From Rhizophagus irregularis (Eukaryota > Glomeromycota > Glomeromycetes > Glomerales > Glomeraceae), in the NCBI RefSeq assembly GCF_026210795.1, contig NC_089441.1, positions 2,976,001 through 3,040,000 on the forward strand: a DNA stretch of 64,000 bases, given 5' to 3'. Every line of letters starts with the position of its first letter. Within the stretch, counting starts at the first letter, position 1. The notes under the pieces are model-generated. The model searched no databases. It was not told the DNA's origin and worked only from the letters and a program-made list of their open reading frames with translations. Made by a program: the position numbers and the translations under genes. Below, one piece after another: positions 9,505 to 59,300 of the stretch.

Positions 9505-9551
9505 CTGATTTCTCAACTCTCCTCCCCGTTTATAATTATCATTGTGTTTTA

Positions 9552-12500: not shown

Positions 12501-15167
12501 CATGCAAGTCACACACCTCTCTGAATCTGAATGTGCCTCGGCAACCAGCAGTATCCGTTCCTTGGTTAAACATAAGGCCAACTTTTCACGTGTTCTCCCT
12601 GATTCTATTCTGTTTTTGTCTCAAGGCTTGGGATTAATTAATTTATTTTTTCACCAATCACAAACGCACTTAACTAATTTGTTTTTATTAGCTAATTCTT
12701 CTTCTTTTTTTATGAAAAATTTATTTTTATATAGATTACGTTTAATTCAATTTTCTTTTTTGATTCCCATTTCTCCATTGTTAGTTAATAATTGGACTTT
12801 ATGGTCTAAACTTTTCGCTTTTAAACAGGATTATATCGCTTGCACTATTGCTCTCCTGACCACCACTCCTTTCAAGTTGTCACGTTCTCGACTTTCAACC
12901 TCGTCTGACCTCACTGTACCTGATGGTCACACGCCTTTATTTGAAGTGATGACTCCAAAAATTTTTATATCTTACTTCCGACGTTTAAGAAGTTTGCAAC
13001 TTTATTACCTATCTCAATTCATCACGCCTCAAGGAACCCATATGATCACTTGGAATGTTTATTTATCCAATCTATCAAGTAGGAAAGGCCATCGAGTCCT
13101 CCCGCATAAATGGTTCAACGACATCCACCAATGTGTCACTGTTCCAAATTCCAATTCTCTGCTCTTGGATCAATTCTCTTCCGAAGCTATTCCTTCAAAC
13201 ATTGATTTGGCTCCAGCTTTTGGTTCCTCTAGAAAATCCATGAAATGGATCGTGACTTTAAACGAAGATGGCTCTCCTCTTTTTGGAAAACAACTTAGCA
13301 AACAACAATATTCCTGCAAGATTGTCCATTGGACCTCTGATTGTGTGACTCGACCTAATGATGTTATCACGCTTACCTCACTGCAACAGCCGAAACATGC
13401 ATCCGGTTACCCATACTAAAAGCAACCCAACAGATGTTACTCCTCTATGTATCATCCCAAAACTTTCTCCTCTTAGATCTTTACTTCTCCCAACAACGCA
13501 GGAGCGTATTAGACATGACACCACCACTATTACTTCTCCTTTTACTTGGGCGGACCTTGACGAGATTGTTAGATCCTATTATGGTCGTTTGGACATTCTA
13601 CCTAATTTTTCACAAGAAGATGTGGTTACTCTCCCTTCTCTTTCTCCTTTTCCCTCCTTGGGTTCGGCTGCCTCTCTTGCTTTTGCTGCCTCACCGTTAG
13701 CGACTCCTCCTGATAATCATTATTGTTTTTATACTGATGGTTCTTTAATCAACCTTGGCACTCCTGATGTTTCTATGGGTTGGTCTTGGGTACAAGTCCT
13801 AGATGGCGCTGGTTTTTTCCAATCTATCGCTGCTCACGCTCATGGAATTTTTCACAATTGGCTTCTTCTACAAGAGCTGAAATTGCCGCTATACATGCTG
13901 CTCTTACAGTCACTCCTCCGTCTTCAACGGTCACTATTCATACTGGCTCCCAATCTGCCATAGATGGTCTTCGTCTATGTGCTACCTTTTCTTATTCCAA
14001 TAGTAGGCTTTATTACAAGCACACCAATTTTGAACTCTGGGCTATTATTCAACGTCTCATTTCCTCCAAATCTTTATCCGTCACGGCTGTTAAAGCGAAA
14101 GGTCACTCTGGTAATTTCTATAACGACTACGCGGACTCTCTGGCCAACTCTGCGCATACTTCTTCTTCAGCAATTCTTCTTTCTGATCTGGATCAAGTAT
14201 CTCCTCACGATTTCTTATTAAAATATGATGATATTTTATGCGAATCCAACCCACGACGCCTATTTAAGCAATATTCGCAAATGCTGTGGATGCATAGATT
14301 AACGCGTTTATCGCGTTTTAACTTTACCATTGCTTTATCCTCCATCTCAGATTTCGTGATTGATTGGGATCTTACCTGGTTCTCGCTAAATTCTGAACCT
14401 CAGCATGATGCTTCATTTACTCGTGCTCATGCTTCCTTTCATCGCACCTTCAAATTCAAACTCTTTTTGGAAGATTTGCCTACCTTGGAACATCTTAAAA
14501 GAATTCGCCCGGACTTGTATATCGACATCTTATTGTGTCGTTCGTGCTTCGACTCCAAGGAAGATTTCATGCACTTGTTTATGTGCAAATGTAGACGAAT
14601 CGCTATGGAACGGATTCTCCTCTCCTACCAACATCACTTTATCAACAAACTTCAAGAAGCTGGTGATCTCGTTAAGAAAGATCCCTCTTTAATTATTAAC
14701 AAATTTAAATCTCTTCCTTGTTGGTCCTTTTCTTCTTCAAATTGGACTTCATATAGCCTTGTCCGTGGCTGCCTTCCGAAATCCTTTGTCAAATTTTTGA
14801 AGAACTTTCTATTCCACGTAACTCTGCGATGAAGGTTATCTCTGCTATCCACAATCACTTTATCCAAAAGATTAGAAAACGAATTTGGCTACCGCGCTCC
14901 TATGATAAATCTAAATGGGAAGACGCGATGAATATTACTCATAAACTTAAACTTTCTCGGCCTTCAAATTTGCCAAAGTCTACGTACTTACCTTTCTCAA
15001 CTTTACCTCCTCCGACCCTTTCCGACGCTGCACGTGACTCCGACGTTGATTATTTAAAGAACTCGATGAAATATGGTTTGCCTTGGTTTAATCACTATTC
15101 GGGTTTTATGGGTCGTCTAACGGTGCAACTTACTAACAGCTTTAGCAGGGTGGTGTGTCGATTTTAA
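9552..15167 (+). pseudogene. LINE ORF2 polyprotein: endonuclease, reverse transcriptase, RNase H
   Basis: Replication polyprotein of the LINE. The endonuclease part (9552 to about 10430) shows SFNVNGLR, GDFN (10125-10136), RIDYVW and SSDHNPV; the usual metal-binding Glu in the ETHL motif is Asp here (GAT at 9786-9788). Reverse transcriptase has NDKAPGPS (about 11350), NTRPITLLEV, DISKAFDSVD (from 11749) and the catalytic FMDD (12088-12099). RNase H has FYTDGS (about 13728), RAEIAAIHAAL and GHSGNFYNDYAD, but the TDSQ Asp is Gly (GGC at 13945-13947). A C-terminal knuckle CRSC...HLFMC lies near 14535-14590. Breaks: a frameshift after 11384 inside the ITYEML-like motif, one near 13405-13430, and 1-nt losses in T runs at 13848-13852 and 14794-14798. 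Frame continuity apart from these is excellent, so the copy is young or some breaks are sequencing errors. Confidence 0.9.
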
Positions 15168-25398: not shown

Positions 25399-25597
25399 CA
25401 GTGTTGGCACTTGGCCGTTTGGCCAGGGTTGGCCAAACTGGCCAAAAAAATCTTTGGCCGCAGCCAAATGCTTAATAAAGTATTAGTATTTTGTTATTTG
25501 GCCAATATTTGGCCAGGGTTGGCCATTGGCCATTTTGCCATTTTGGCTGGCCAAATCGGCCAAAAAAATTCTTGGCCGCGGCCAAATGCCAACACTG
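25399..25597. mobile_element. hAT-type MITE with GGCCAAA repeats (199 bp)
   Basis: TIRs CAGTGTTGGCACTTGGCCG (left) and CAGTGTTGGCATTTGGCCG (right, reverse complement). Flanking 8-mers are ATTTAAAT (25391-25398) and ATTTAAGT (25598-25605), one mismatch. Internally GGCCAA/TTGGCC recurs many times, so the whole element can fold on itself. Caution: the flank is itself rich in TTTAAGTAT repeats, which weakens the TSD evidence. The start CAGTG and 8-bp TSD fit hAT. Confidence 0.75.
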
Positions 25598-35166: not shown

Positions 35167-35586
35167 TGGGATAAACCTCTCTAAAGCATCGGGCTTAGTG
35201 TTCCAATCCGATTAGCCGCTATCCAGATTTTTTGACGGATATCCGGATATTGGCAATTATACGAATAACGGATAAGTTAACAGATCGGATCACACGGATG
35301 ATGGATAATAACAGATCAGATTTCTCAGATGATGGATAATAACTAACGGATTCATCTGACAGATATCTGACAAAATTTAATTTATAATGATTCGGATCCC
35401 GTCAAATCACGTGTCGTTACACAAATTTCCGAAAAAGGAAATTTTGATTTCTGCGAAAATGGAACTCTTGTTGTACAAGGATCCAAAAAAGGAAATTCCG
35501 GTGCCGATCAGTTAATGCCGGCTGGAATTATATCATATACAAATTTTAATGGTATTAACGGATAATCCGGATAATCCTTAAGAATA

Positions 35587-38156
35587 CAGTCGTCCCCCTC
35601 TATAGTCACCCCCTATATAAGAACACCCCCTATTTAGTCATATCATTGTCAAGTCCCGTTTTTTTAAATATTAAAATGCCCCTTTTGTACACAAATCGAT
35701 TATACTACTATCACACTAATAGTTATCCCCGATATAATAATTAACATACGAAAATTTCCCCTTATATAGTCATATCACGTGATTAACAATGTATTCGGAA
35801 AATATATCGCGCGTTTTGTGCATAAAATGAATTTTCCTTTTAAGTTGATAATCACCACATGTTTCGAACTTTTTCTTTACAATTTTTATTTGAAAATGTT
35901 TTATTTTTCGATTTCAAACTTTTTTCATTACATAAATTCATCCTTTTACAAAAACTATCTTTTTCACTTTTTTTTATATCTAATATAATGCCACCTATAC
36001 GTTTACAAAAAGCAAGGAGAATTCGTTCTGCCATTAGTAATGAAATAAAAAAAGAAATATGTGAATATATAATGGCAAATAGTAATGTGAAACAGGAAGA
36101 AGTTGCACTTTACTTTAATACAAAATATAATGAATTAAACATTGATAGATCAACTGTATCAAAAATATGGCAAAATCGTGAAAAGTGGATGGCAGTTCTT
36201 TCAACTTCACAGACTGCATGTACATTTCGTCATCGCTCAGTTCAGTATCCAGAACTTGATAAGGCGCTTGCAAATTTGGACAGCACAAGCAGCGACCGCT
36301 GGACTTCCTTTAACTGATATGATTTTACAACAAAAAGGAATAGAACTTGCACAAATGTTAAATATTGGAGAAAATCAAATAAAATTTACTAATGGTTGGG
36401 TGTACAGATTCAAAAAACGGAATGGACTTCAAAGAGTTAAGTTTTCAGGTGAGGCTAATAGTGCCCCTATAGAAACTCTTCCAGAAGAACGTGTACGTCT
36501 TCGTGCACTTTTAGCTAAGTATGACAAGGAAGATATTTATAATGCAGATGAAACTGGGCTTTTTTTCCGAATGGAGCCAAACCAAACATTGAGTACTGGT
36601 GCAGTTGCGGGGCGTAAAATGGTAATTTTTATTGTAATAATTTTTCGTTAAAATAACTCTTTAAATGTTTTTTATTTTTCTGTAATCACTTTTTGACAAA
36701 ATAATTATTTTCTGTAGGACAAAAGCCGAGTTTCTGTTTTATTTTGTGCTAATGTTACAGGATCTCATAAAATTCGTCCTTTGGTAATTGGAAAATCATT
36801 AAATCCCCGATGTTTTAAAAATCTCAACAAGTCAACTCTTCCAGTCATTTATCGAGCCAATTCAAAAGCATGGATGAGATCTGATATTTTCATTGAATGG
36901 CTTAAACACCTTGACTATTACTTTCGCACAATGGATAGAAGAGTTTTACTTCTTATTGATAATGCAGGATCCCACTTTAATCCAAAAAGATTTAAAAAAA
37001 ATGATGATATGGATGATGAAGAAATTTCAGAATCTGATGACGAACAAGAATCTAAAAAACAAAAGAAAAAAGAAAAACCTGCTGTTGATCTTACTAATAT
37101 TGAGCTTGTTTATCTTCCACCAAATACAACCGCTCATCTCCAACCTATGGATGCAGGTATTATCCATAGTTTTAAAGCTAAATATAAACAAGAATTTTGT
37201 AGACATTTAATTCGGCAGTTTGATTCTGGAGTTGATCATGTTAAGTAAGTTTAAAAAATTAACATTATTTTTCTATTAATGTTATTAATTTATTATTTTA
37301 TTTAGAAATAAGTTAAACATTAAGGAGGCAATTGATTATATTGCTGAATCATGGAATAATGTCACTCCAACAACAATTCAAAATTGTTGGATCAAAAGCA
37401 GTATATACCATCTTGTGATGATGATAATACGGATGAAGAAGATTTAGATGATGATGAACTTGAAAATCTTCTTATTAATTTGCCGGAAGAAACTGCTGAT
37501 GTATTGGAATATTTTCAGTTGCTTGATCGTGAAATTCCAACTGAAGAGCACCTTACTGAAGAGCAAATTATTGATATGGTGCGAAATGAAGAAAATCAAG
37601 TAGAAGAAAGTGAAGATGATGACGAAAATGAAGAAATTCCTCTGATATCAGTGAAAAAAGCAATTAATGGGTTGGAAACTTTTGTTAATTATTTTGAACA
37701 ACAAGAAGATTCCGAGTTTAATATTGGTGATTTGCGTATTTTTAGAAAATACTTACGAGTAATTAGAGTTAGAGAGATCAATGCAAAAAAGCAAAGTACA
37801 CTTGATGGTTTTTTTGATAGGTAAATAACATTAATATAATTTTTAATAATTGCGAGATGTAATACTTTTATTAGTTATAATAGTTATAATAGTTATAATA
37901 GCGTAAAATAATAAAATCGGATTTGATATACATATTAGAAGGCAACGTGCTTTATTTTTATCATGTTATATAATTATATTTAATTTTAAAATAAAGATTA
38001 TTATATAAAAATAACAAATAAAAAAAAAATTTATAGTCACGCTAATACAAAAATTTTATATATATGTGACTATATTGTAAAAGTCTCATATAAAGCACAC
38101 CTCTCTATAGTCACGTTGTGTGGTCCCAAGAGGTGTGACTATAGAGGGGACGACTG
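35587..38156 (+). mobile_element. pogo/Tigger-type (Tc1-mariner) transposon, 2570 bp
   Basis: TIRs CAGTCGTCCCCCTCTATAGT (left) and CAGTCGTCCCCTCTATAGTC (right, reverse complement). The TSD is TA (35585-35586, 38157-38158), as expected for Tc1/mariner. Further CTATAGTCAC words repeat inside both ends. It encodes one transposase (35988-37824). Confidence 0.92.
35988..37824 (+). pseudogene. pogo/Tigger-type DDE transposase with CENP-B-like DNA-binding domain
   Basis: Transposase of the surrounding element. ATG at 35988 starts MPPIRLQKARRIRSAISNEI; the first helix-turn-helix reads CEYIMANSNVKQEEVALYFN. A second, CENP-B type, has LPLTDMILQQKGIELAQML and FTNGWVYRFKKRNGLQRVKF. Catalytic motifs are IYNADETGLFF, LLIDNAGSH and HLQPMDAGII. 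The second and third Asp are separated by 63 residues because of an acidic/basic insert (DDMDDEEISESDDEQESKKQ). Introns lie at 36622-36717 and 37245-37305, phases consistent. A 1-nt insertion near 36270 and a frameshift near 37390-37405 interrupt the frame. The C-terminus (37410-37824) is acidic and ends KKQSTLDGFFDR. Otherwise well preserved, so recently active or mis-sequenced. Confidence 0.88.
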
Positions 38157-38284
38157 TAATCTGGATGATCCAAATGATACTTATGCGGATATTCTGGATG
38201 ACAGATTTCGGATAAACAGATGGTGGAATCAGATAAAAGGGTGACGGATATCCTCAGATTGGAACACCAATCAGGCTTATAGAG

Positions 38285-46696: not shown

Positions 46697-46869
46697 ATGC
46701 CTCACCACACACGTTCACGTCATTCCCACTATAACGTCCATTGGAACTGAGCTATAATTAAGGATGGGTCCGCAAATGATTTTCAAATTCTGCAATATTG
46801 CGGATTTTGGAGTTGAATTGCGGTTAATAGCCCGCAATTCCGCAATTCTAATTGCTACCCATAACTGTA

Positions 46870-47209
46870 GTTTCATATATTTATAAAAACGCCGGAACTA
46901 TAGGTTCCGGCATTTTCTTTTATTTTTTTTACATAAAACGCCGGTACTATGGTCCCAACGTTTTCTTTTATTTTTTTTACATAAAACGCCAGTACTATAG
47001 TTCCGGCATTTTCTTTTGATTTTTTTTGCATAAAAACGCCGGTACTATGGTCCTGGCGTTTTCTTTTAATTTTTTTTGCATAAAAACGCCAGTACTATGG
47101 TACCGGCGTTTTCTTTTATTTTTTTTTTACATAAAAAACGCCGAAACTATAGTTCCGGCGTTTTCTTTTAACTTTTTTTACATAAAAACACCGGAACTAT
47201 AGTTCCGGC
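46870..47209 (+). repeat. H1 hairpin array, left part
   Basis: Seven units of about 50 bp. Each has a palindromic core of the type CGCCGGAACTATAGTTCCGG plus a spacer TTTTCTTTTATTTTTTTTAC-ATAAAA. Cores vary mainly at C/T and G/A within CCGG and CGCC. Confidence 0.88.
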
Positions 47210-48144
47210 TAGAGCTCCACACGGGTCAGGTCGGGTCGGGTAATTTGTCTGATCCGAACCGAAAAATTTTTATCAGGTCGGGTCAGGTCGGGTAACCTGC
47301 TCTGACCTGACCTGACCCGTCTGACCTGAAAGTATTCATGTCATTTTTCTATAAAATAATATGAAAAAACGCCGTTTTGGTGATTTTTTTCATAAAAGAA
47401 GTTGAAAAAAATGCCGTTTCGGCATTTTTCCATTAAATAATATGAAAAAACGCCACTTTGGCGATTTTTTTCATAAAAGAAGTGGAAAAAAATGCCGTTT
47501 TGGCATTTTTACATAAAATAATATGAAAAAATGTCGTTTTGGCGATTTTTTTCATAAAAGAAGTGAAAAAAAATGCCAAAACGGCATTTTTCCATAAGAT
47601 AAATGAAAAAATGCCGCTTTGGCGATGTTTTTATAAAAGAAGTGAAAAAATGCCGCTTTGGCAATTTTTTTCATAAAAAAAGTGGAAAAAAATGCCGTTT
47701 CGGCATTTTTCCATTAAATAATATGAAAAAACGCCACTTTGGCGATTTTTTTCATAAAAGAAGTGAAAAAAAATGCCGTTTTGACATTTTTCCATTAAAT
47801 AATATGAAAAAACGCTATTTTGGCGATTTTTTTCATAAAAGAAGTGAAAAAAATGCCAAAACAGCATTTTTCCATAAAATAAAATGAAAAACGCCATTTC
47901 GGCGTATTTGTTTATAAAAAATAATGCCAAAACGGCATTTTTTTCATAAGGTAACATGAAAAAACGCCGTTTCAGAGTATAAACATTTTTTTTGAGCTAA
48001 AGTATTCGGGTTGACAGGTCAATTGGGTCAGGTCAAACCTGTAACCCGACCTGATACCAGGTCACGAATTTGACAACCTGACCTGAATATTTCAGGTCAA
48101 CCCGACGGGTTACCCGAATTGACCCTTACCCGTGCGGAGCTCTA
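47210..48144. mobile_element. Hairpin-array hAT-type element H2 (935 bp), nested in an H1 hairpin
   Basis: TIRs TAGAGCTCCACACGGGTCAG and TAGAGCTCCGCACGGGTAAG (right, reverse complement). The TSD is GTTCCGGC / GTTCTGGC (47202-47209, 48145-48152), 7 of 8 matching. The TSD is the right arm of an H1 hairpin. Subterminal zones consist of GGGTCAGGTC / GACCTGACC words (47219-47335, 48010-48130). The centre (47340-47965) is an array of units such as AACGCCGTTTTGGCGATTTT and AATGCCGTTTCGGCATTTTT separated by TTTCATAAAAGAAGTG or CCATAAAATAATATG. Confidence 0.88.
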
Positions 48145-48666
48145 GTTCTGGCATTTTCTTTTAACTTTTTTTTACATAAAAATGCCGGAACTATAGTCCC
48201 GGCATTTTCTTTTAACTTTTTTTTACATAAAAATGCCAGAATTATAGTTCCGGCGTTTTCTTTTAACTTTTTTTTACATAAAAACGCCGGAATTATAGTT
48301 CCGGCATTTTCTTTTAACTTTTTTTTACATAAAAACGCCGGAACTATGGTTCCAGCGTTTTCTTTTAACTTTTTTTTACATAAAAACGCCGGTACTATAG
48401 TTTCGGCGTTTTCTTTTAACTTTTTTTACATAAAAAACGCTGGTACTATGGTTCTGGCATTTTCTTTTAATTTTTTTTTACATAAAAACGCCGGAACTAT
48501 GGGTTCCAGCATTTTCTTTTATTTTTTTTTACATAAAAACGCTGGTACTATGGTCCCGGCGTTTTCTTTTGATTTTTTTTTACATAAAAACGCCAGAACT
48601 ATGGGTTCTGGCGTTTTCTTTTATTTTTTTTACATAAAAACGCTGGAACTATGGGTTCTGGCGTTT

Positions 48667-48721
<55 letters not shown>

Positions 48722-48960
48722 TAAAAAACGCCGGTACTATAGTTCCGGCATTTTCTTTTGATTTTTTACATAAAAACGCCAGTACTATGGTTCTGGCATT
48801 TTCTCTTATTACAACTGCAAAAAAAAAAACGCCGGAACTATTATTTCCGGCATTTTTTTTTATTTTTTTATTAAAATTACCGGAACTATTGGTTCCGGCG
48901 TTTTTTTTTGCAGTTGTAATAAGAGAAAATGCCGTTTCTGGCAGTTTTTCCAATTACCAA
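48145..48960 (+). repeat. H1 hairpin array, right part, with a 50-nt T run
   Basis: About fifteen further units of the same kind as 46870-47209. A pure T tract of 50 nt occupies 48669-48718. The last two units (to about 48945) have Ts and As in altered spacing and are themselves bounded by the inverted words GAGAAAATGCC / TTCTCTTATTACAACTGC. Confidence 0.85.
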
Positions 48961-49552
48961 TCCATCTTTTTCTAAAAAATAAAATCATTTTTATTTAAAT
49001 TTTGTTAATGAAAAATGATTTTTTTTTTATGATTAATAATAAGAGGAAATATATTTTTTAGTAGTTAAATTAAAAAATTATATTTCATTAAAAAAAAAAT
49101 AAGTTTTTTTTGCGGACATTCCTCAAATCCGCAAATATTCCGCAAATCTGTAAATATTCCGCAATTGAATTGCGGTACTTTGGATATTTGTGGATTTGCA
49201 GAATATTTGCGGGATTGCGGACAATTGCGGATTTGCGGATCTGCAGATTTTAGATTTAAAAATCCGCAATGTTTCGCAATACCGTAAATCGCAATTATTC
49301 CGCAATTACATATTTGCGTCACCATCCTTAGCTATAATGGACGAGCTTGTTGACATACGCTGAGACAGAAACCGTGCCTACCACAATATTAATAGTAGAA
49401 ACCGCCATGATTTTTGTGACTTTGTTGCCAATAGGTTCATATGACTAATATCTATAATTTCTTTAAGAAAGAATTTAAATTCAAATTAACCAATCCATTT
49501 AATTGAATCAGAATAAATAGAATATTTCATACAAGGGTTTCTGGATAACAGT

Positions 49553-49833
49553 CACTGGTAAAAAAATGATTTATCCTACACATATCTTACACATATTAGG
49601 TACTCAAAATGTAGAAAATCATACACAAATAATACATATATCATACACATATCGGGTACTAATATATATATCATACATATATCAGGTACCTGATAGGTAT
49701 ACTATATATATAAGTACCCGATATGTATATGATATGTGTATTATTTGTGTATGATTTTCTACATTTTGAGTACCTGATATATGTAAGATATGTGTGTAGG
49801 ATATGTGTAGGATAGACCATTTTTTTACCAGTG
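49553..49833. mobile_element. CACTA-like foldback MITE (281 bp)
   Basis: Almost fully palindromic. TIRs CACTGGTAAAAAAATGATTT and CACTGGTAAAAAAATGGTCT; inside, CATATCGGGTACT and AGGTACTCAAAATGTAGAAA occur in both arms. The TSD is AGT, 3 bp (49550-49552, 49834-49836). Same end type and internal words as the element at 51548-57637. Confidence 0.82.
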
Positions 49834-49836
49834 AGT

Positions 49837-50287
49837 GCAACCAAAAGTGGAGGAACTTCGTCAGGGATTACCATGTAAGTAAATAAATAAAATTACATTA
49901 TTCATATAAATTAAATGTATTTATCGAATATTCAAACTAATTTTGATATTTAGAACTATGTCCTTTATCATAATGGTAACCCTAGACGGCGGCTGTAGAC
50001 GCATACTGGCTAAAGATATTATCGCAAATTTAGAACGAGATTTTAGAAGAGGCTGGGTAATTATACTATAATAAAATTTATAATTAATATTTACATTCAT
50101 TGATCAATTTGATCAATTTTAGTCATACGTGATGATCATAAGAGAAGGAGAAACTTACCTATGTATTGTAAAAGATAATTATTTTGGCCCAGTTCGTACC
50201 AAATATTGGCTGGAGACTCACGTTTTTTTTGAGCTGCGATCTGATACTGACGTCCACGCTATACAAATTTCAGAACATATTTTATAA
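49837..50287 (+). CDS. Small spliced gene of unknown function
   Basis: Three exon-like pieces with GT-AG introns (49875-49953, 50057-50122). The piece ending at 49874 could encode SATKSGGTSSGIT. 49954-50056 encodes TMSFIIMVTLDGGCRRILAK and DIIANLERDFRRGW. 50123-50287 encodes SYVMIIREGETYLCIVKDNY, FGPVRTKYWLETHVFFELRS and DTDVHAIQISEHIL before TAA at 50285-50287. Phases agree across both introns and there is no internal stop over about 105 codons, unusual in such AT-rich DNA. ATG at 49958 is a possible start if the upstream piece is not used. No domain recognised; it may be the 3' end of the Myb/SANT-like gene upstream, which two insertions have separated. Confidence 0.5.
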
Positions 50288-50425
50288 AATAGTAGCGAAT
50301 ATGTATTTTTTTATTAAGTTATAATAAAAATTAAAATTTACTTTAATTTTTAACATAAAAATTGTAAATAATAATAAAAAATTCGTATGCTCCTTGTATA
50401 CGTTTTACTGCATACGCAGCTTTAA

Positions 50426-51345
50426 CGATCAAATAGTAATATTACGCAGGTTTACAATCTCGTAAATTTTTAAAATATTTTAACTGTAATATTACGCAGG
50501 TTTACAGTCTCATAAATTTTCAAAATATTTTAACCGTAATATTACGCAGGTTTACAATCTCGTAAATTTTTAAAATATTTTAATCATAATATTACGCAGG
50601 TTTACAGTCTTGTAAAATTTTAAAATATTTTAATCGTAATATTACACATATATATGAAATCAAAATTGGTTAATTTTGACCTCTAAAATGGTCGAAATAG
50701 TCGAAATGATTTTGACTTGAGCCCCTCCAAAAGTCGAAATGGTCAAAATTACATCATAGTCATATGATTTTATAGTAAACAATAATATTAAAATTCCCAA
50801 TGATATGTATTTAATATTTATAGCATCAATATTGACGGAATTATTCACGTTTAAAATTTTATATTAAATTATAATTATAAAAATCACATGACTATGATGT
50901 AATTTCGATCATTTTAACTTTAATTTTGACTTTTGACCTTCCGTCCCAAGTCGAAATATTTCTACTTTTGGGCTTTAATTTCGACTTCATGTATAATTAC
51001 GCAGGTTTACAGTCTCGTAAATTTTTGAAATATTTCAACTGTAATATTACACAAGTTTAGTCTCATAAATTTTTGAAATATTTCAAACGTAATATTATAC
51101 AGGTTTACAGTTATGTAAATTTTCAAAATATTTTAACCGTAATATTACGCAAGTTTACAGTTTTGTAAATTTGCAGAATATTTTGACTGTAATATTGTGT
51201 AAATCTTACGATATTGAAAACTTGTGTAATATTTTAACTGTAATATTATATAAATCTTACGAAATTGTAACTTACATAATATTTTGAAATTTTTCAAAAT
51301 ATTATGCCATAAATTTTCGTAAATTTACAAAATTGTAAACTTACG
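50426..51345 (+). repeat. 52-bp tandem satellite (TAATATTACGCAGGTTTACA type)
   Basis: Units begin TAATATTACGCAGGTTTACA, continue ATCTCGTAAATTTTTAAAAT and end ATTTTAAC. Four units precede and about six follow an inserted inverted-repeat element. Divergence grows toward 51345, where the sequence dissolves into TTACGCAATTTTTCGCGC. Confidence 0.8.
50650..50995. mobile_element. Inverted-repeat element inside the 52-bp satellite
   Basis: Left ATGAAATCAAAATTGG and right ATGAAGTCGAAATTAAAG (reverse complement) form imperfect ends. GTCGAAAT and GACTTTTG words fill both flanks. The satellite resumes on the right at ATAATTACGCAGG. No exact TSD. Confidence 0.5.
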
Positions 51346-51392
51346 CAATTTTTCGCGCTATAAAATTTTCTGATGTTATAATAAAGGTCACT

Positions 51393-51547
51393 GTAGAAAA
51401 TTGATTCTTTACTAATAGTTTTTACCTTACTTTTTTCTTAAATTCTATTGGTTAATTAACTAAAAAGGAAAAAAATTATAACAATGTAACATAAAATTTC
51501 CTTTTATAGTAGGATCTGCAAAGAATTTTATATATGATTTTTACCTT
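51393..51547 (+). repeat. LTR-like repeat, 5' half
   Basis: Reverse complement of 45350-45490 (shared AC-ATTGTTATAATTTTTTTCC and GGTTAATTAACTAAAAAGG words). It ends TTTTTACCTT, where CTT is the TSD of the CACTA-like insertion. The other half resumes at 57638. Confidence 0.75.
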
Positions 51548-51849
51548 CACTGGTCAAAATTAGTGCTATTAGGTACATATCGGGTACCTGATATGTGTAT
51601 AATATATGTAATATATGTGTAGTATAAATGTAGAAAAATGGTGATACATTATGTAAATATCATATACACATCTTACACATATCGGGTAGTCAAATATTAG
51701 TGACATATCTTATAGATATCATACATTTAACATACACATATCAGGTAGTAAAATATCAGTAATATATATTATAGATATCATACATTTAACACACATATAT
51801 CAGATAGTAAAATATGTAAAATATTGGTAATATATATTTTTATTGTATA

Positions 51850-53439
51850 CGTTTGACAATTTCATATTAAAACTAGTAATAGATTTATATCTCTTTTTTT
51901 TATTTTAATTTGGGCTAAATGAAATTTAATTTTATTAAAATTTATAAATTTATTTATATAAAAGCAATAAGGCCAAAGAAATAAAATTATTCGTTTCTCA
52001 TGAAAAAAAATTGCTAAATTTGATCCGGCCACCCGGAAAAAAAATTTATTTTCAAAAAAAAATTTAGCCGATTCCTAGAAGATGATTGGTTGATTTAATA
52101 AATTTTTTGCCCAGGTTACCGGGTGGAAAAAAAAATTATTTTTTTATGATTATGATTGGTCAAAACCAAAATCACATGACCAAATAAAATAAATTTTTTT
52201 ATCTTTTCGCAACATTTACATGACCCGCCCGGTCATGAGAAACGAATAAATTTATTTACTTGGCCTAATACAAATCTTACACTATCTGCTACGTAAAATC
52301 AAATAAGGTTGAACATAATTATACTATGTAATATATTAAGTTCTACTGAAAGTAGCAATGATAATAAAATTACCTCTTTGCTTGTTTTGTTATATCTGTT
52401 TATTATTTAAAAAAAATATCAGTGAAAATATTAGTAAGTATATTAATTAATAGGAGAAAATAAAACAGAAATGTTAATAAAAATATTAGTGGTAAATATA
52501 AAAAATATTAGTAAAAATGTTAGTAGGAAGAAAGAAAAGTTAGTAAAATAGAAAATGTTAATAGGAGAATGTTAATAAAAATATGTTAGTAGTATTTAAT
52601 ATTAATAGAAAATGTTAAGTAGTAGAAAACATTAGTGAGCGAAAAGAAAAAAAGTATTAGAACGTCAATAGAAAATGTATATATAAAAAGAAAAAATAAG
52701 CATAATGAAAATATACCTTTATGTTTATTTCTAAATATAAAAATAAAAAAAAATATATTAATATTATTTCATAATAACTAAGTAAAGAGTTTGTTTTAAA
52801 TAAAAAGTTTAAGAGAAAGGGCTTTTACGAAAGAAAAAAAAAATAAACAAAGTGCGAAATATAAATACCGAAATCATGTGATCAATCGCCTGATTACAAT
52901 AACAAATTCTGATTGGGCTATAGATTTTAACCGGATTATTATAATTAATAAAAAAATGCATTTATATTATTTATACTAGAATTACATTGCAAGTTAAACT
53001 CTTTATCGCTTTAAATAATACAAAACCCTACTTAAATATACCAATTAGTCACCTATCATGCATACCAGTCAACATGGTAAATTACTGATTTTTCGTAATA
53101 TCAAATAATAAATATTTATTTAGAAATTCCTTCATCCACTCAACTTACAGTTTGTATTATTATCCAAGAATCCATGTCCTTAATAAAAATAATAATAAAA
53201 AAAAAGGTACATTATTAACATTCTTAATTTTAAAAAAAACTCCTCCTCTCTTCCTATTCTACTTACTATTAGTCCTATTACAAAGTCTAATATGACAGTA
53301 TCCAATAGCCACAAACGAGAGTCTCTAAAGATACAAAAAAAAGGAAGCATCAAACTTGCCAAAACTTTATGGAATGGCGAAACCTTTCGGCATAGTTTTA
53401 GCATAGTTTGACACTAACATTCAATAATATTTCAGCATA
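51850..53439. other. AT-rich interior of the CACTA-like element
   Basis: No recognised gene. 52020-52230 has CCCGG/CCGGGT words with long A tracts (GCCACCCGG, GGTTACCGGGTGG, GACCCGCCCGGTC). 52430-52690 repeats GTTAGTAAAAA, resembling 22140-22320 inverted. Confidence 0.4.
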
Positions 53440-54310
53440 GTTTCGCATGTTAGCAGTCCAAGAACCTACAAAAGAAAAAAGTAATGTTACTAAGGAAAAA
53501 AAAATAAACGTGAAACTCCTCTTCTCCATTTACCTTTCACTAAAGTCCGGTTCGTATAATTCATCTAGCGTTCCTACAATAAAAGAAAAAAAATGTAACG
53601 TTAGTAACGATACTAAGAGAAGTAAATTTCTCTCCCATTAATACCTTCACTCAAAAGTCCAGTTCATAATTTCATCTAGCTTTCCTACAAAAAAAAGAAA
53701 GAAATGTTAGAAACGTTTCTTATTTAACACACATAACATACTATATCCACCCAATTTACATCAAGTGTAAGTCTGCCTTCTAAGAGTTCGATGTCCTAGT
53801 TCTACAAAAAAACAAAGAAAGAAACGTTAGTACATTTCTTTAATATTCAAAAAATCAATTCCTCCTCCCCTATTCCTAATATTATCCAAGTCCAGATTCG
53901 TTTTCAAGAGTCCAGCGTCCTAGCCCTATAAAAAATAAAGAAAGAAACGTAAGTATATTTCTTTACATAATATTAAAAAAACATTTTCCCCTCTTCCCAT
54001 TCCTTACATTATCCAAGTCTGGGTTCGCTTTCAAGAATCTGACGTCCTAGTTCTACAAAAAAATTAAGAAAGAAACGTTAAAAACGTTTTTTTAATATTA
54101 ATCCTTCCTCCTTCCTTACACACATTCTAAGTCTGGATTCGTTTTCAAGAGTTCAGCATCCTAGTTCTAACAAAAAAAAAAAAAGAAGAAAGAAACGTTA
54201 AAAATGTTTCTTAATTATAGTAAAACACATAACCCCAGTCTCCTTCTTCCACATTACTTTTATTGGTTTAACGGTTCATCCTGGTCTTCAAGGTCTGGCG
54301 TTCTACAAAA
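53440..54310 (-). repeat. Array of about eight micro-exon-like units, minus strand
   Basis: Unit length is about 115-125 bp. Read on the minus strand each unit has ACGTTTCTTTC, a T/A-rich tract ending TTTTTTGTAG, a 40-45 nt block and usually a GTAAGG- or GTAAATGG-like donor. The blocks are related (AACTAGGACGTCAGATTCTT, GGCTAGGACGCTGGACTCTT, GAACGCTAGATGAATTATAC). One translates as TLDELYEPDFSE; another as LGRWTLENESGLG with a stop at its end. It looks like a tandemly amplified exon-intron module, partly decayed. Confidence 0.6.
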
Positions 54311-54649
54311 AATAAAAGTCCGACTTACAAAAAAAAAATAAAAAATAAAATATTTTTTTTTTTTAGTATTGATTTTTATTAGATTATCAACGATCAATAA
54401 ATGATTAAATTCTAACCAAAACTTCAGGTAATTTTGTGAAACCCTAGTTTTGGCAAGCAATCTTAGATCGGATGTTATACAGATGACTGGATTGACTGGA
54501 TTGATCAGATAGTCTGGTCAAATCTGGTATTTTTTTATTTTTTTTATTTTTATTTTTTTTAAAAAAAAAAATATTTTTCATTTTTTATTCTCCTTCAGTT
54601 TTTCCTTTTGGAATTCAGCTTAAACGGCTTAGGATGTTCGTTTTTCTAA

Positions 54650-55480
54650 GGGAATACCTTCCTGGAATTGGATTTCAGCTTGAAGGTAAGTTAGGAGGAG
54701 GGTATTTCGTTTCTTTTTTGTTTTTATTTATTTATTTATTTTTCTAATGTTTCTCTTTATTCTTTTTTGTAGACTTTAGCTTCTTAGATTATTTGAGATA
54801 TTTGGTAAGTGTGTGAAGGTGGGTTCTTTTAGAATTTACTTTGAAGAAATGTACTAACGTTTCTTTTTTTATTCTTTTTTGTAGATTTCGTCTTCCCAGG
54901 TTCTTTGTAAGTGTGTGGGGTGGGTTTTTTCAGAATTTACTTTGAAAAAACGTACTAATGTTTCCTTTTTTATTCTTTATTGTAGATTTCAGCTTCCTGG
55001 ATTATTTAGGATATTGGGTAAATGTGTGGGAGTTCTTTCAGAATTTACTTTGAAAAAACGTACTAACATTTCTTTTTTATTCTTTTTTGTAAATTTTGTC
55101 TTTCCGGGTTCTTTGTAAATGTGTGAGGTGGATTTTTTTGAAATTTACTTTGAAGAAACGTACTAACATTTCTTTTTTTATTCTTTTTTGTAGATTTCAT
55201 CTTTTTGGGTTTTTTGTAAGTGTATGAGAGTGGATTTTTTCATAATTTACTTTGAAGAAACGTACTAATGTTTCTTTTTTTATTCTTTACAATTGTAGAT
55301 TTCAGATTCTTGGATTATTTGAAATATTGGATAAGTGTGTGAGGGTGGGTTCTTTTGGAAGTTACTTTGAAGAAACGTACTAATGTTTCTTTTTTTATTC
55401 TTTTTTGTAGATTTCATCTTCCTGAATTATTTAGGATATTGGGCAAATATGTAGGGAGTTTCGGAATTTACTTTAAAGAA
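54650..55480 (+). repeat. Array of about seven micro-exon-like units, plus strand
   Basis: Unit spacing is about 100-112 bp. Each unit has TTCTTTTTTGTAG, then a block of either 22 nt (ATTTCGTCTTCCCAGGTTCT type) or 32 nt (ATTTCAGCTTCCTGGATTAT type), then GTAAGTGTGTG-like donor and TTTACTTTGAAGAAACGTAC. Pairs of 22+32 nt keep the reading frame; spliced blocks 1-5 are open and give a repeated FSFLDYLGYW-type peptide. It faces the minus-strand array across 54310-54650, and the two share the ACGTTTCTTTTTT-GTAG part. Confidence 0.6.
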
Positions 55481-55968
55481 ATATACTAATATTTCTTTTT
55501 TATTGGGATATGGGTAGTGTGTGGAGTGGGTTTATTTTAAACAAACATAATAATTTTATTTTTGTTCAAATTAATAAATAATTTCATATTACTATATAAT
55601 AAACTATAAACCAATGAATATCTTATGGCTTGAATTAAAATCTGAAAAAAAAAATTCGGTATAATAATAAAAAATTATCAGATTGAACAGATTCAATCCT
55701 AATTTTCAGATAGATGACTGGATATCCAGATTGATGGATTTCGGGACATACCTATACTAGTGTTGCCTGCCATAAATAGTTGTAAGTCTAAAAATCAAGT
55801 AATTATAATGGTTGTAAATCAGAATTATCATCTTTTAGTTAACCACAATAGCATAGTATTTACAACCAAATTACAACTTATGTTTATAATATTACAACCC
55901 GCTTAGGTTGTAATTCGAAATATAATAATCAATACTTACGGCACACAACCTTAACCTATACCATACTG
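55481..55968. other. AT-rich spacer with GTTGTAA and GACTGGAT words
   Basis: No gene. 55700-55745 repeats GATGACTGGATATCCAGATT-like words that also occur at 54480-54530, so 54470-55760 might be a separate inserted element bounded by them; I could not fix TIRs. Confidence 0.35.
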
Positions 55969-57404
55969 TAGTGCTCTACACAAGCCAAGCTGGCTCATGA
56001 GCTGGCTTAAGCTTTTCAAGCTGAGCCAAGCCAAGCCATGATTAATTGGCTTAATGCTCGGCACTAGCCTAAGAGCTCGAGCCAGTTATTAGGCTCAGCT
56101 CAAAAAGCTCGAGTCTGTAACAGACTTGGCTCAAAAAGCTCGAGCTGGCTCATGAGCCAAATGAGCTATTATACAAAAAACGTTGCAAAACGTTTTTATA
56201 TAATAATGCATGCATAAACAAACCGTTTTTGCAACTTTTTTTTTATTGTTTATTAAAGAACGTTGCGAAAATGTTTATTTAAGTTTTTACATGTAAAATT
56301 GAAAAAAAAATGCTGGAACTAATGATTCTGGCATTTTTACATGTAAAATTGAAAAAAAAATGCCGGAACTAATAGTTTTGGTGTTTTTACATGTAAAATT
56401 GAAAAAAAAATGCCAGAACTAATGATTCCGGCGTTTTTATATGTAAAATTGAAAAAAAATGCTGGAACTAATAGTTTTGGCATTTTTACATGTAAAATCA
56501 AAAAGAAACTGCTGGAACTGATAATTCCGGCGTTTTTACATGTAAAATCGAAAAAAAATGCCAGAACTAATGATTCTGACGTTTTTACATGTAAAATTGA
56601 AAAAAAAATGCTGAAACTAATAGTTTTGGTATTTTTACATGTAAAATCAAAAAGAAAAATGCCAGAACTAATTATTCCGGCAGTTTTACATGTACAATCG
56701 AAAAAAAAATGCCGAAACTATCCGTTTCGGCATTTTTACATGTAAAATTAAAAGAAATACGCCGAAACTATCAGTTTTAGCGTTTTTACATATAAAACCA
56801 AAAAGAAATACGCCGGAACTAATTATTCTAGCGCTTTTACATGTAAAATCGAAAAAAATGCCGAAACTATCAGTTTTGGCATTTTTACATGTAAAACTAA
56901 AAGAAAATACGCCAGAACCAATTATTCTGGTGCTTTTACATGTAAAATCAAAAAAAAATGCCGAAACTATCAGTTTCAGCGTTTTTACATATAAAACCAA
57001 AAGGAAATATGCCGGAACTAATTATTCCGGCGTTTTTACATGTAAAATTGAAAAAAAAATGCCGAAACTATCAGTTTCAGCGTTTTTACATGTAAAATCA
57101 AAAGGAAAAACGCTGAAACAAATAGTTTCAGCGTTTTATATAAATATAAAAGTAAAAAATGTTTCACAACATTTTTTTAATAATTTAAAGTAAAAACGTT
57201 GCGAAAATGTTTTTATGATAAAGCTCAAGTCAGCTCAAGCTCAGCTTGGCTCAAGCCAGGATTTTCATGGCTCAGCTTGGCTCGAACTGAGCTGAGCCAA
57301 GATTTTTTATGGCTCGGCTCATTTCAGGCTTGGCTTGGTGCAGATCTTCAAGCCGAGCCAAGCCAGACTGTAGCTCAGCTCGAGCCGGCTCATGTAGAGC
57401 ACTA
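55969..57404. mobile_element. Hairpin-array hAT-type element H3 (1436 bp)
   Basis: TIRs TAGTGCTCTACACAAGCC (left) and TAGTGCTCTACATGAGCC (right, reverse complement). The TSD is CCATACTG, perfect (55961-55968, 57405-57412). Subterminal zones are dense in GAGCC, CAAGCC and AGCTCGAGC words (55980-56165, 57215-57390). The centre is a hairpin array (56280-57145). Inserted within the 6.1-kb CACTA-like element. Confidence 0.93.
56280..57145 (+). repeat. H3 hairpin array
   Basis: About sixteen units of 56-57 bp. Core palindromes such as GCCGGAACTAATAGTTCCGG are flanked by TTTTTACATGTAAAATTGAA spacers, which are themselves palindromic (TTTTACATGTAAAA). The second half alternates two core types, GCCGAAACTATCAGTTTCGG and CGCCGGAACTAATTATTCCG, indicating higher-order dimers. 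57-bp units are 19 codons, so spurious long frames appear on both strands. Confidence 0.88.
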
Positions 57405-57469
57405 CCATACTGTATGTCATATACTGTATGTGACATACTATGCCAAAACATTTCACTTTTCATTGATAT

Positions 57470-57637
57470 ATAGATGCCCGATATATAACTGATAGCATAG
57501 ATTTTGACCAGTGTGAATCGGTGATATATTGGGTACCCGATGTGTACCTGATATATGTAACTGCCTGATATATATCTGATTTATTACCGATATATAGATG
57601 CCTGATATATACCCGATAGCATAGATTTTGACCAGCG
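57470..57637 (+). repeat. Duplicated right terminus of the CACTA-like element
   Basis: About 50 bp (GATATATAGATGCCCGATAT through GATTTTGACCAGTG) occurs at 57470-57519 and again at 57588-57637. The outer copy is the true end by TSD; the inner copy carries the better TIR (CACTGG). Confidence 0.75.
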
Positions 57638-57709
57638 CTTAGGTCTGAGGGTGACCTATCTTATAAGTAAGTGGGATCTTGCTATTATGCTATAAATATT
57701 TAGAAGTTA
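57638..57709 (+). repeat. LTR-like repeat, 3' half
   Basis: CTTAGGTCTGAGGGTGACCT onward matches the reverse complement of 45300-45345 and continues the half ending at 51547. It is followed directly by a primer-binding-site-like sequence. Confidence 0.7.
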
Positions 57710-57722
57710 TTGGTATCAGAGC
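57710..57722 (+). promoter_or_regulatory. Primer-binding site for reverse transcription
   Basis: TTGGTATCAGAGC, the classic LTR-retrotransposon site complementary to the 3' end of initiator methionine tRNA. It lies just after the LTR half, as expected for a gypsy or copia element read on the plus strand. Confidence 0.7.
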
Positions 57723-58010
57723 GTGATCTAGTGATTGGATTTAAATGATCTTACTACTATTAGAATTGCCTTATCAAGACAAATTAAATGGTAGTAAGAT
57801 CATCCAAAACAGATCACTGGATGCCAAGTTATTATTTATTAAAGTTTATATATATAAATCGGCTAAAATTAAGACTAATTCTGGTCTTAATTACGGAGTC
57901 TGAAATTAATTATAGAATACGGAGTTTTTCTAATGAATTATTTAATAATTACAGAATTACGTAATTACATATTTCTGTAATACTACTTATAAGAGATTAA
58001 GGAAAAGTTT
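57723..58010. other. Deleted leader/gag region of the gypsy element
   Basis: Only short remnants; GATCTTACTACTATTAGAAT and its inverse ATGGTAGTAAGATCATCC form a local inverted repeat (57745-57810). No Gag or protease is present, so a large internal deletion precedes the RT fragment. Confidence 0.4.
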
Positions 58011-58238
58011 GTTTTAAATGATGTTATTATATATTCAAAGACTTTTGAAAAACATATACAATATTTAAAAAAGCACTTTGTAGCAGCTGAACTTCAATTC
58101 TTAAGTCATGTGATAGGAAAAAAAGGTGGTAAACCTGATTCAGAAAAAGTTGACAAAATGGTTAATTATCCAAAATCAGAGAATTGTGAAAAATTTTAAG
58201 ATTATTTTCTTATTATTGATGATTTATTAAAGATTTTA

Positions 58239-58423
58239 GGGAGCTTACACATATTATGTAATTATTATAGGGGGGGAGGGGGTAGTTAAAATTTTACGTT
58301 ACACTTATTTAAATCATATGATTTATAAATATTATAATTTGATTGGTTATGAAATCTAACAGGGGGGGGGGGGGGGGTAAGGTTTATAATAAAATGAATA
58401 TTACGTGATATGTGTAACTCCCC
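58239..58423 (-). mobile_element. Harbinger/Tourist-type MITE, copy 2 (185 bp)
   Basis: Inverted, nearly identical copy of 341-521, with G runs instead of C runs. The TSD is TTA (58236-58238, 58424-58426). Inserted in the gypsy RT gene. Confidence 0.9.
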
Positions 58424-58574
58424 TTACTAAAGTTGCCAATCCTATGTATAAGTTATTAAAAATATATATATATTATGAGAAAAATTAACAACAGCACCTA
58501 TTATATAATATTCAGATTATTTAAAACTATTTTTTTACATACTAATGCTTTAATATTAGCTGAAAAGAATTATA

Positions 58575-59219
58575 TAGGGATGGTAAAGTCTAGGTCACTG
58601 GACTAAAGAAAAACTAGTCTAGGAGGGCCTGGTACGCAGATCTTTATTTAGGTCCAAATTTTGGAATAAAAGCGGACAGGTTCTAAAAAGTCTAGCCAAT
58701 AAGGTTATAAGAGATCCATATGTTTAAATTATATATGTATAATTTGCTGTAAATTTGATTTTAAGTAATTATAAATTATAAAAAAAGTGCATTGCAATAT
58801 TGCAATACAATTTTTATATTATTAAAATCATATAAAAAATGAGTTGTGATATTGCGATTCACATTTTTATATTAAATCATATAAAAAGGTGAATCACGAT
58901 ACCGCAACTCACTTTTTTTATATAAAATCAATATAAAAAAGTGAATCGCAATACCGCAACTTACTTTTTTTATATAAAATCAATATAAAAAAGTGAATCG
59001 CGATATCGCAACTCACTTTTTTTTATATAAAATCAATATAAAAAAGTGAATTCCAATATCGCAACTCACTTTTTTTTATATTTAGTTATTACTAAATTCA
59101 TAAAATCTATAAATAATTTAACTCGGACCTGGCCTAGCGGACCAGGTCAGCAGATCTGTTCAATAAGACTTATAGGTTTCAGGACCAGAACCGGACCAAG
59201 ACTGACCTAACCATCCCTA
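58575..59219. mobile_element. Hairpin-array hAT-type element H4 (645 bp)
   Basis: TIRs TAGGGATGGTAAAGTCTAGG and TAGGGATGGTTAGGTCAGTC (right, reverse complement). The TSD is GAATTATA, perfect (58567-58574, 59220-59227). Subterminal zones have GGTCC, TCTAG and GGACCAG words. The central array (58775-59090) has about five units with cores like GTGAATCGCGATATCGCAAC plus TCACTTTTTTTATATAAAAT. Inserted in the gypsy RNase H region. Confidence 0.92.
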
Positions 59220-59300
59220 GAATTATACAATCATAGAATTAAAATGTCTTGCAATTGTTTGAACTGTTAAATATTTTTAATATTATCTCTGTAAAAGTAA

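Follow-up and report, generated by a model that had tools for sequence, protein, structure and literature searches.

Ds/hAT internal-deletion derivatives retain their ends, while the interior is lost or replaced after excision by filler DNA from abortive gap repair; such filler is not known to be a recurrent hairpin array common to unrelated families. The 64,000-nucleotide stretch of the Rhizophagus irregularis genome analyzed here (NC_089441.1, positions 2,976,001 to 3,040,000; henceforth the window, with coordinates counted from its first base) harbors four elements with hAT-type ends, H1 to H4, in each of which terminal inverted repeats (TIRs) and private subterminal repeats, together termed the frame, enclose a tandem array of short palindromic units. 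We consider it likely that these are non-autonomous, hAT-mobilized elements composed of a frame and an exchangeable core, the latter being a hairpin minisatellite.

Several described systems resemble this layout in part, and the comparisons drawn here and in the final section rest on passages of each source cited. The coral CMITEs, which are piggyBac miniature inverted-repeat transposable elements (MITEs) of Acropora, share interiors among families with less conserved TIRs, the origin of the interior being left unexplained in the passages concerned (PMC2872659). The oyster Cg_HINE elements, which are non-autonomous Helentrons, consist of modular flanks and central tandem repeats, and related flanks may hold unrelated repeats (PMC7492417). 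Satellite or tandem repeats are also carried inside the non-autonomous class II elements Xstir and miDNA4, both MITEs of Xenopus (PMC6947457, PMC9659126), and a central tandem-repeat domain with differing ends characterizes the SVA, LAVA, PVA, and FVA composite retrotransposons, in which this domain is a variable number tandem repeat (PMC4432496). An earlier note on the window, made from the sequence alone, knew of no fungal hAT class with the layout of H1 to H4, and literature searches likewise found none. A hairpin-array hAT element of Rhizophagus was not encountered in the passages considered of PMC11075540, PMC8647823, PMC9757828, and PMC6399891, and the words "hairpin" and "tandem" occur 0 times in the main text of the first of these.

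Frames and arrays of the four window elements

The presence of four TIR elements, each with private subterminal repeats and a central tandem palindromic array, was borne out when pairs of TIRs and target site duplications (TSDs) were called by script. The elements and their parts are as follows, with array periods and unit numbers taken from Tandem Repeats Finder (TRF).

46759..49330, + strand: H1, non-autonomous hAT-type element, TIR TAAGGATGG, subterminal words CCGCAAAT, split by H2
46751..46758, + strand: left TSD of H1, GCTATAAT
49331..49338, + strand: right TSD of H1, GCTATAAT, 8/8 relative to the left
46883..47209, + strand: left part of the H1 array, units ACGCCGGAAC..GTTCCGGCGT, period 50-51
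48145..48683, + strand: right part of the H1 array, 10.6 units of 51 bp, with degenerate units on to about 48920
47210..48144, + strand: H2, hAT-type element, TIR TAGAGCTCC, words GGGTCAGGTC, nested in an H1 hairpin unit
47202..47209, + strand: left TSD of H2, GTTCCGGC, 7/8 relative to the right, within an H1 hairpin arm
48145..48152, + strand: right TSD of H2, GTTCTGGC
47342..47923 (about), + strand: H2 array, units GCCGTTTCGGC, period about 80, each with two hairpins by eye
55969..57404, + strand: H3, hAT-type element, TIR TAGTGCTCTACA, GAGCC words, ends matching the array-free 4.1-kb locus L069
55961..55968, + strand: left TSD of H3, CCATACTG
57405..57412, + strand: right TSD of H3, CCATACTG, 8/8 relative to the left
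56283..57137, + strand: H3 array, units GCCGAAAC/GCCGGAAC, linkers ACATGTAAAA, period 50, 17 units
58575..59219, + strand: H4, hAT-type element, TIR TAGGGATGG, GGTCC words, ends matching the array-free 2.9-kb locus L080
58567..58574, + strand: left TSD of H4, GAATTATA
59220..59227, + strand: right TSD of H4, GAATTATA, 8/8 relative to the left
58781..59081, + strand: H4 array, units AGTGAATCGCGATATCGCAACTCACT, period 52, 5.8 units

Short TIRs of hAT type are present in all four elements (TAAGGATGG in H1, TAGAGCTCC in H2, TAGTGCTCTA in H3, and TAGGGATGG in H4), as judged against the TIR motif of hAT elements, and they match over only about 9 to 14 bp. Of the 8-bp TSDs that had been claimed throughout, those of H1, H3, and H4 are perfect, whereas that of H2 agrees at only seven positions. 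Among the loci retrieved from the genome searched (146.7 Mb, 32 contigs), those with both TIRs show a TSD of at least 7/8 in 11 of 13 cases for H1, 12 of 13 for the H2 type, 16 of 16 for H3, and 25 of 28 for H4, where the best TIR pair per locus was used and where the H1 figure follows the exclusion by hand of 26 H4-frame loci (one TIR mismatch) from the 39 caught. The 8-bp TSDs and hAT-like TIRs, together with hAT-coding partners for H3 and H4 (see below), uphold the assignment of the elements to the hAT type. A Helentron or HINE with central repeats is ruled out for H1 to H4, since TSDs and TIRs are present, as is a foldback element, given the shortness of the TIRs and the head-to-tail arrangement of the arrays according to TRF (some H4 units look inverted).

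Short hairpins, defined by a 9-bp stem with at most 1 mismatch, number 12 in H1, 14 in H2, 8 in H3, and 2 in H4, against maxima of 2, 2, 2, and 1 in 20 dinucleotide shuffles per element. On the + strand, the palindrome of the H4 unit is imperfect; on the - strand, with G.U pairs included, the unit forms a full hairpin of 16 bp. The H1 array is divided in two by the nested H2. A 55-bp poly-T run lies within the H1 array at 48664-48718. Two neighbors previously regarded as hAT-type and array-free, X5 (25399-25597, just 199 bp) and X6 (35196-38269), do possess hAT-like TIRs and, by eye, flanking repeats of 7/8. Hairpins number 3 in X6, against a shuffled mean of 1.5, but also 3 in the short X5, against a shuffled mean of 0.4.

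One array family in three frames

The four elements had been presented as unrelated, which is correct for their ends and incorrect for the arrays of H1 and H3, and probably also for that of H2. In a comparison of element ends, those of H1 gave no significant match to those of H3, H4, or H2f beyond short A-T-rich stretches, H2f being a subfamily with H2-type frames and an H3-type array. This subfamily emerged from five of the matches to the H3 array without H3 ends (L031 and L035 to L038), which are bounded by the TIR TAGAGCTCC and by TSDs agreeing at 7 or 8 of 8 positions and four of which display H2-frame subterminal repeats of the GGGTCAGGTC type. The same array is found in five further H2-type TIR pairs (L071 to L075) and in L084; L034 was included in H2f on the one TIR seen.

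Best local alignments of at least 300 bp yield an identity of 84.0% between the arrays of H2f and H3 (264 pairs, range 78.0 to 89.7), compared with within-frame values of 85.9% for H3 (276 pairs), 86.5% for H2f (55 pairs), and 82.8% for H1 (78 pairs). The H1 array is 71.1% identical to that of H3 (312 pairs) and 71% identical to that of H2f (141 pairs), its right part in the window being homologous to the H3 array in reverse orientation. Between the 180-bp ends of two H3 copies and those of two H2f copies (L074 and L036), the best score is 9 (E 0.6), and the homology between H2f and H3 starts and stops near the array edges. The converse applies to H2 and H2f, whose ends are 80 to 81% identical and whose arrays are just about 61% identical. 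When each array was compared with 100 shuffled, re-tiled controls, comparisons among H1, H3, and H2f scored 163 to 564 against control maxima of 18 to 47. The array of H2 in the window is weakly similar to H3-type arrays (41 to 67), yet above the control maxima of 19 to 23, and the H4 array scored 20 to 38 against the others (control maxima 16 to 34), above every one of the 100 controls in 9 of the 12 comparisons, so that descent of H4 and H3-type arrays from one lineage is at most a candidate reading. A likeness between H4 and H3 linkers, seen by eye only, was not used as evidence.

The H4-type array in a second frame

A pattern for the H4 unit matched 104 times, and the 100 matches listed form 46 clusters, of which 32 lie within 1.5 kb of an exact H4 TIR and 14 do not. 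Among the latter, cluster C2 is an H4-frame copy (L047) whose TIR is one base off, while C6 corresponds to L085, the array of which is 85% identical to H4 arrays over 318 to 395 bp. One end of the L085 frame matches an H2 end at E 1e-18, the best value against an H4 end being 0.07. Three more of these clusters (C13, C15, and C30) adjoin copies of the L085-type frame, and a 401-base piece beside another such copy, L086, contains H4-type units and, after them, AACGTTGCGAAAACGTT-like hairpins such as are also seen beside H3 and H2f arrays. The first 160 bases of the L085-type frame recur in at least 40 places at 99 to 100% identity (for example, at G000:C30:222115), 20 of them, L085 included, being identical over all 160 bases; these places are the 40 scored of 250 candidates, and the array content of the family is based on L085, L086, C13, C15, and C30, with the 35 other listed copies left aside. 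From this near-identity, the L085 type would represent a young, MITE-like, and probably active family. The AACGTTGCGAAAACGTT-like hairpins make up a third class (class iii), which flanks differing arrays in H3 (window about 56160-56280 and 57100-57220), in H2f, and in the L085-type family (L086, 240-400).

H2-type frames are thus seen with three array types, namely, those of H2 in the window, of H3 (H2f), and of H4 (L085). Because H3 and H2f arrays are 84% alike without alignment of their ends, and because the H4 array recurs in an H2-type frame, these alignments indicate that frame and array are separable, independently assorting modules. The arrays had been interpreted as convergent; homology across the H1, H3, and H2f frames, and between H4 and the L085 type, overturns that interpretation and rules out four independent inventions of the array for these sets.

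Array-free partners that encode transposase domains

Two of the four 4.1-kb loci bounded by H3 TIRs were read; these, L069 and its sister L070, both have TSDs of 8/8, and the ends of L069 are 82% and 76% identical to those of H3 over about 180 bp. A translation of L070, pieced together manually over presumed introns and at least one stop, matched PF05699 at E 9.9e-17, although its separate open stretches individually gave no hAT match. The ends of the 2.9-kb L080 are 79% (82 bp) and 71% (135 bp) identical to those of H4, its TSD is TCCACAGT (8/8), and one of the four stretches scanned matched PF14372 at E 7.6e-7, above the cut-off. A hairpin-type tandem array is absent from L069 and L070, in which TRF reported only short A-T-rich or subterminal repeats, and L080 is without tandem repeats; hairpins number 4, 1, and 0 in L069, L070, and L080, against shuffle maxima of 3, 4, and 4. 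Since array-free partners with matching ends encode hAT transposase domains, H3 and H4 look like derivatives of coding hAT parents whose interior has been replaced by an array.

Distribution of frames and arrays in the genome

TIR-pattern searches located 83 ends for H3, 68 for the H2 type, 132 for H1 (100 listed), and 78 for H4, while the backwards patterns gave 16, 0, 0, and 0, respectively. Whole-element searches scored the best 40 of 585, 628, and 352 candidates, and the copy counts are accordingly lower bounds. Pairing of H3 ends less than 12 kb apart produced 22 pairs, i.e., 14 of 1.1 to 1.9 kb, 4 of 4.13 to 4.16 kb, and 4 others, and the array was present in all 13 of the 14 short pairs that were sampled. 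Arrays contain 6 to 31 units in the copies counted, some being clipped by locus ends. By a MITE criterion (non-coding, high in copy number, and no longer than about 0.8 kb), most H4 copies, at 617 to 821 bp, and the L085-type family would fit, whereas copies of H1, H2f, and H3 measure between about 0.7 and 2 kb.

Further small elements were observed. In L043 (2139-2288), an H4 copy carries, close to its right end, an inserted 150-bp TAGAGCTCC element with a TSD of 8/8, and a single locus, L025, holds two 244-bp MITE copies with TIR TAAGGTTGCTTG (2981-3224 and 3762-4005; TSDs 8/8 and 7/8).

The intact unit AACGCCGGAACTA..RTTCCGGCGTT was matched 111 times (control, 0), and the 100 matches listed represent 32 arrays, of which 15, 13, and 3 lie within 1.5 kb of H1, H2-type, and H3 TIRs, respectively. 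The sole array without an exact TIR is L084, which belongs to H2f and has a TSD of 8/8, so that all 32 arrays among the listed matches are framed. Independence of the arrays from the TIRs is thus not observed for this unit, whereas 18 clusters of other unit types remain unplaced. This distribution bears on the possibility that each frame acquired its tandem repeats by itself from genomic minisatellites, as filler DNA and with no exchange between elements. In favor of such capture are the independent gain of tandem-repeat cores by oyster Helentrons (PMC7492417), the low scores of the H2-window and H4 arrays against the others, and the 18 unplaced clusters. Against it stand the lack of any frameless case among the 32 placed arrays, the closeness of the H3/H2f cross-frame identity to the within-frame values, and the occurrence of two array families in two unrelated frames each; on balance, we regard independent capture as unlikely.

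Hairpin maintenance and RNA folding

Function had previously been argued from the supposed convergence, with small-RNA precursors, spacing devices, and replication-slippage products as examples. Under the small-RNA reading, the arrays would be kept as precursors (a source for host silencing or a decoy of the element) on which different families converged or which they recruited. Small RNAs do arise at transposable element (TE) loci in R. irregularis, and TEs there bear CpG methylation, although its level is low on numerous hAT copies (PMC8647823). Furthermore, 300 bases of the H3 array fold as RNA at a z score of -10.9 relative to shuffles, a result to be expected because any palindrome array must fold well.

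The arms of the hairpins were compared in 421 H3, 164 H2f, and 132 H1 units. Changes in one arm are independent of those in the other at CpG pairs b, e, and f in all three sets, with nine odds ratios between 0.6 and 2.0 and a lowest p of 0.11, as the CpG decay of methylated repeats would give. Pairs g and d, which stay paired when both arms change, support the small-RNA reading (figures are given below), and a weak coupling of pair j is seen in H1 (p 0.03). The better-folding strand shows no preference in H3 (10 of 24) or H2f (5 of 12) and a weak one in H1 (8 of 13, p 0.03). In H4, the - strand pairs better in 30 of 30 copies, mainly via three founder pairs (G.U); without these, the lean persists when all units are counted (105 versus 60) and vanishes when distinct units are counted singly (32 versus 35), and RNA-strand selection on H4 units was rejected on this count. 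Because CpG arms decay independently and the strand bias rests mainly on founder states, there is no clear support in these sequences for ongoing selection on the hairpins, although selection may act on rare master copies only. With the arrays homologous and no consistent strand bias beyond founder states, the argument from convergence to function falls away, and maintenance of the arrays as small-RNA precursors appears improbable.

Proposed origin of the composite elements

A very improbable alternative is that the hairpin units, or the array as a whole, are a mobile, hyper-parasitic element inserting into hAT elements, for although the same arrays occur in unrelated frames and class iii hairpins are common to H3, H2f, and L086 beside different arrays, no intact GCCGGAAC unit lies outside frames among the 100 listed matches, no array ends or TSDs of its own were noticed by eye at array edges, and no coding was seen.

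Under the composite reading that we favor, the frame would be retained from an autonomous hAT parent as the likely transposase recognition zone, and the tandem hairpin minisatellite would occupy the place of the parent's coding region. A core may enter a new frame when synthesis switches templates while an excised or broken element is being repaired, or through ectopic exchange, with another array-bearing element serving as the template; A-T-rich palindromes would stall synthesis and promote template jumps, and would favor ectopic exchange as well. Nested insertion, as of H2 in an H1 hairpin, would place frames and cores of different kinds next to one another. The number of units would then shift by slippage or unequal exchange, and the core would spread as a passenger of whichever frame is mobilized, possibly doing no more than keeping the two ends at a workable distance.

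Several observations weigh against this reading. The transfer step was not caught, no chimera with an exact breakpoint having come to light. The 18 unit clusters with no known frame nearby comprise 9 of 46 H4-unit, 7 of 28 H2-unit, and 2 of 14 B-type clusters (the latter being C2 and C32, a third B-type cluster without an exact TIR being L084). The frame of L085 was assigned from its left end. Among the TIR pairs listed, no transposase partner was recognized for H1 or H2-type frames, and in the 1.2 kb sampled (L083) of a candidate partner, the 4.35-kb H1-TIR pair at C6, none of the 10 open reading frames (ORFs) scanned, out of 13 of at least 40 amino acids, had a Pfam match. Finally, the non-CpG pair g is coupled, with odds ratios of 93 in H3 and 82 in H2f (4.6 in H1, p 0.12), as is the non-CpG pair d, with 100 in H3 (6 double changes) and 16 in H1 (p 0.02). 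The coupling at g in H3 and H2f reflects two unit types that differ by a compensated pair. Taken from these couplings, hairpins have at some time been re-made with both arms changed; the g and d couplings may represent a few old events.

A further-reaching proposal, which we advance tentatively and with some doubt, is that arrays have been handed repeatedly between unrelated hAT frames, with A-T-rich hairpins acting as template-switch hot spots while excised elements are repaired, newly active frames drawing cores from a shared pool, and H2-type frames serving as a hub.

Other features of the window

When the remaining arrays of the window (49.4-55.96 kb) were searched for enclosing TIR/TSD frames, 11 rows were returned, none convincing and ten of them inside repeat blocks; 52210-55098 was rejected as a framed element on account of its weak 11-of-14 TIR. 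Two arrays that face each other, with units of about 100 bp, occupy 53650-55520; they contain short palindromes of the GAAACGTTAGTACATTTC kind as well as intron-like stretches, GTAAGT...TTTTTGTAG, and no TIR/TSD frame was found. Periodic AAGTTTCGAAAGT-like palindromes in L083 (G000:C6:2943300-2944500) make the interior of that H1-TIR pair resemble, by eye, these arrays rather than a transposase gene. At 50436-51350, two 50-bp tandem-repeat blocks (GTAATATTACGCAGGTTTACAATCTCGTAAATTT..) surround about 330 bp with inverted repeats and could be foldback-like. The region 7786-13963 contains ORFs of a non-long terminal repeat (non-LTR), jockey/Tbingi-like retrotransposon, and the best homologues of the long interspersed nuclear element ORF at 9552-11384 are R. 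irregularis proteins, with identities of up to 99% over 58% of the query and of 83 to 90% over 87 to 100%. The sequence TTGGTATCAGAGC at about 57710 resembles an initiator-tRNA primer-binding site and possibly marks the edge of an LTR element.

Comparison with known systems

The origin of MITE interiors is a long-standing question, and here a single genome lines up coding parents (for H3 and H4), frames, and interiors common to unrelated frames. The L085-type frame is young enough for a comparison of strains to reveal its movement and changes in its array. A caution also follows for similarity-built repeat libraries, in which shared cores may cause unrelated hAT families to be lumped together.

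Each of the systems introduced at the outset differs from the elements described here, as far as the passages cited extend. The CMITEs are piggyBac rather than hAT elements, their TIRs keep a common terminal motif, and their interior is described there neither as a hairpin array nor as one of several interiors within one frame (PMC2872659). The Cg_HINE elements are Helentrons without TSDs, their monomers average 140 to 180 bp, and any one cluster of repeats is found consistently with the same two flanks (PMC7492417), whereas in R. irregularis an array family occurs in unrelated frames. Xstir and miDNA4 of Xenopus each represent one element type, with no sharing between frames cited (PMC6947457, PMC9659126), and the SVA, LAVA, PVA, and FVA elements are ape retrotransposons that depend on other machinery (PMC4432496). 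Non-autonomous class II elements with internal tandem repeats are already known. To these the present case adds arrays that are built of hairpin units and carried by hAT frames in a glomeromycete; two of the array families each occupy frames unrelated to one another, and one type of frame is seen with three different arrays.

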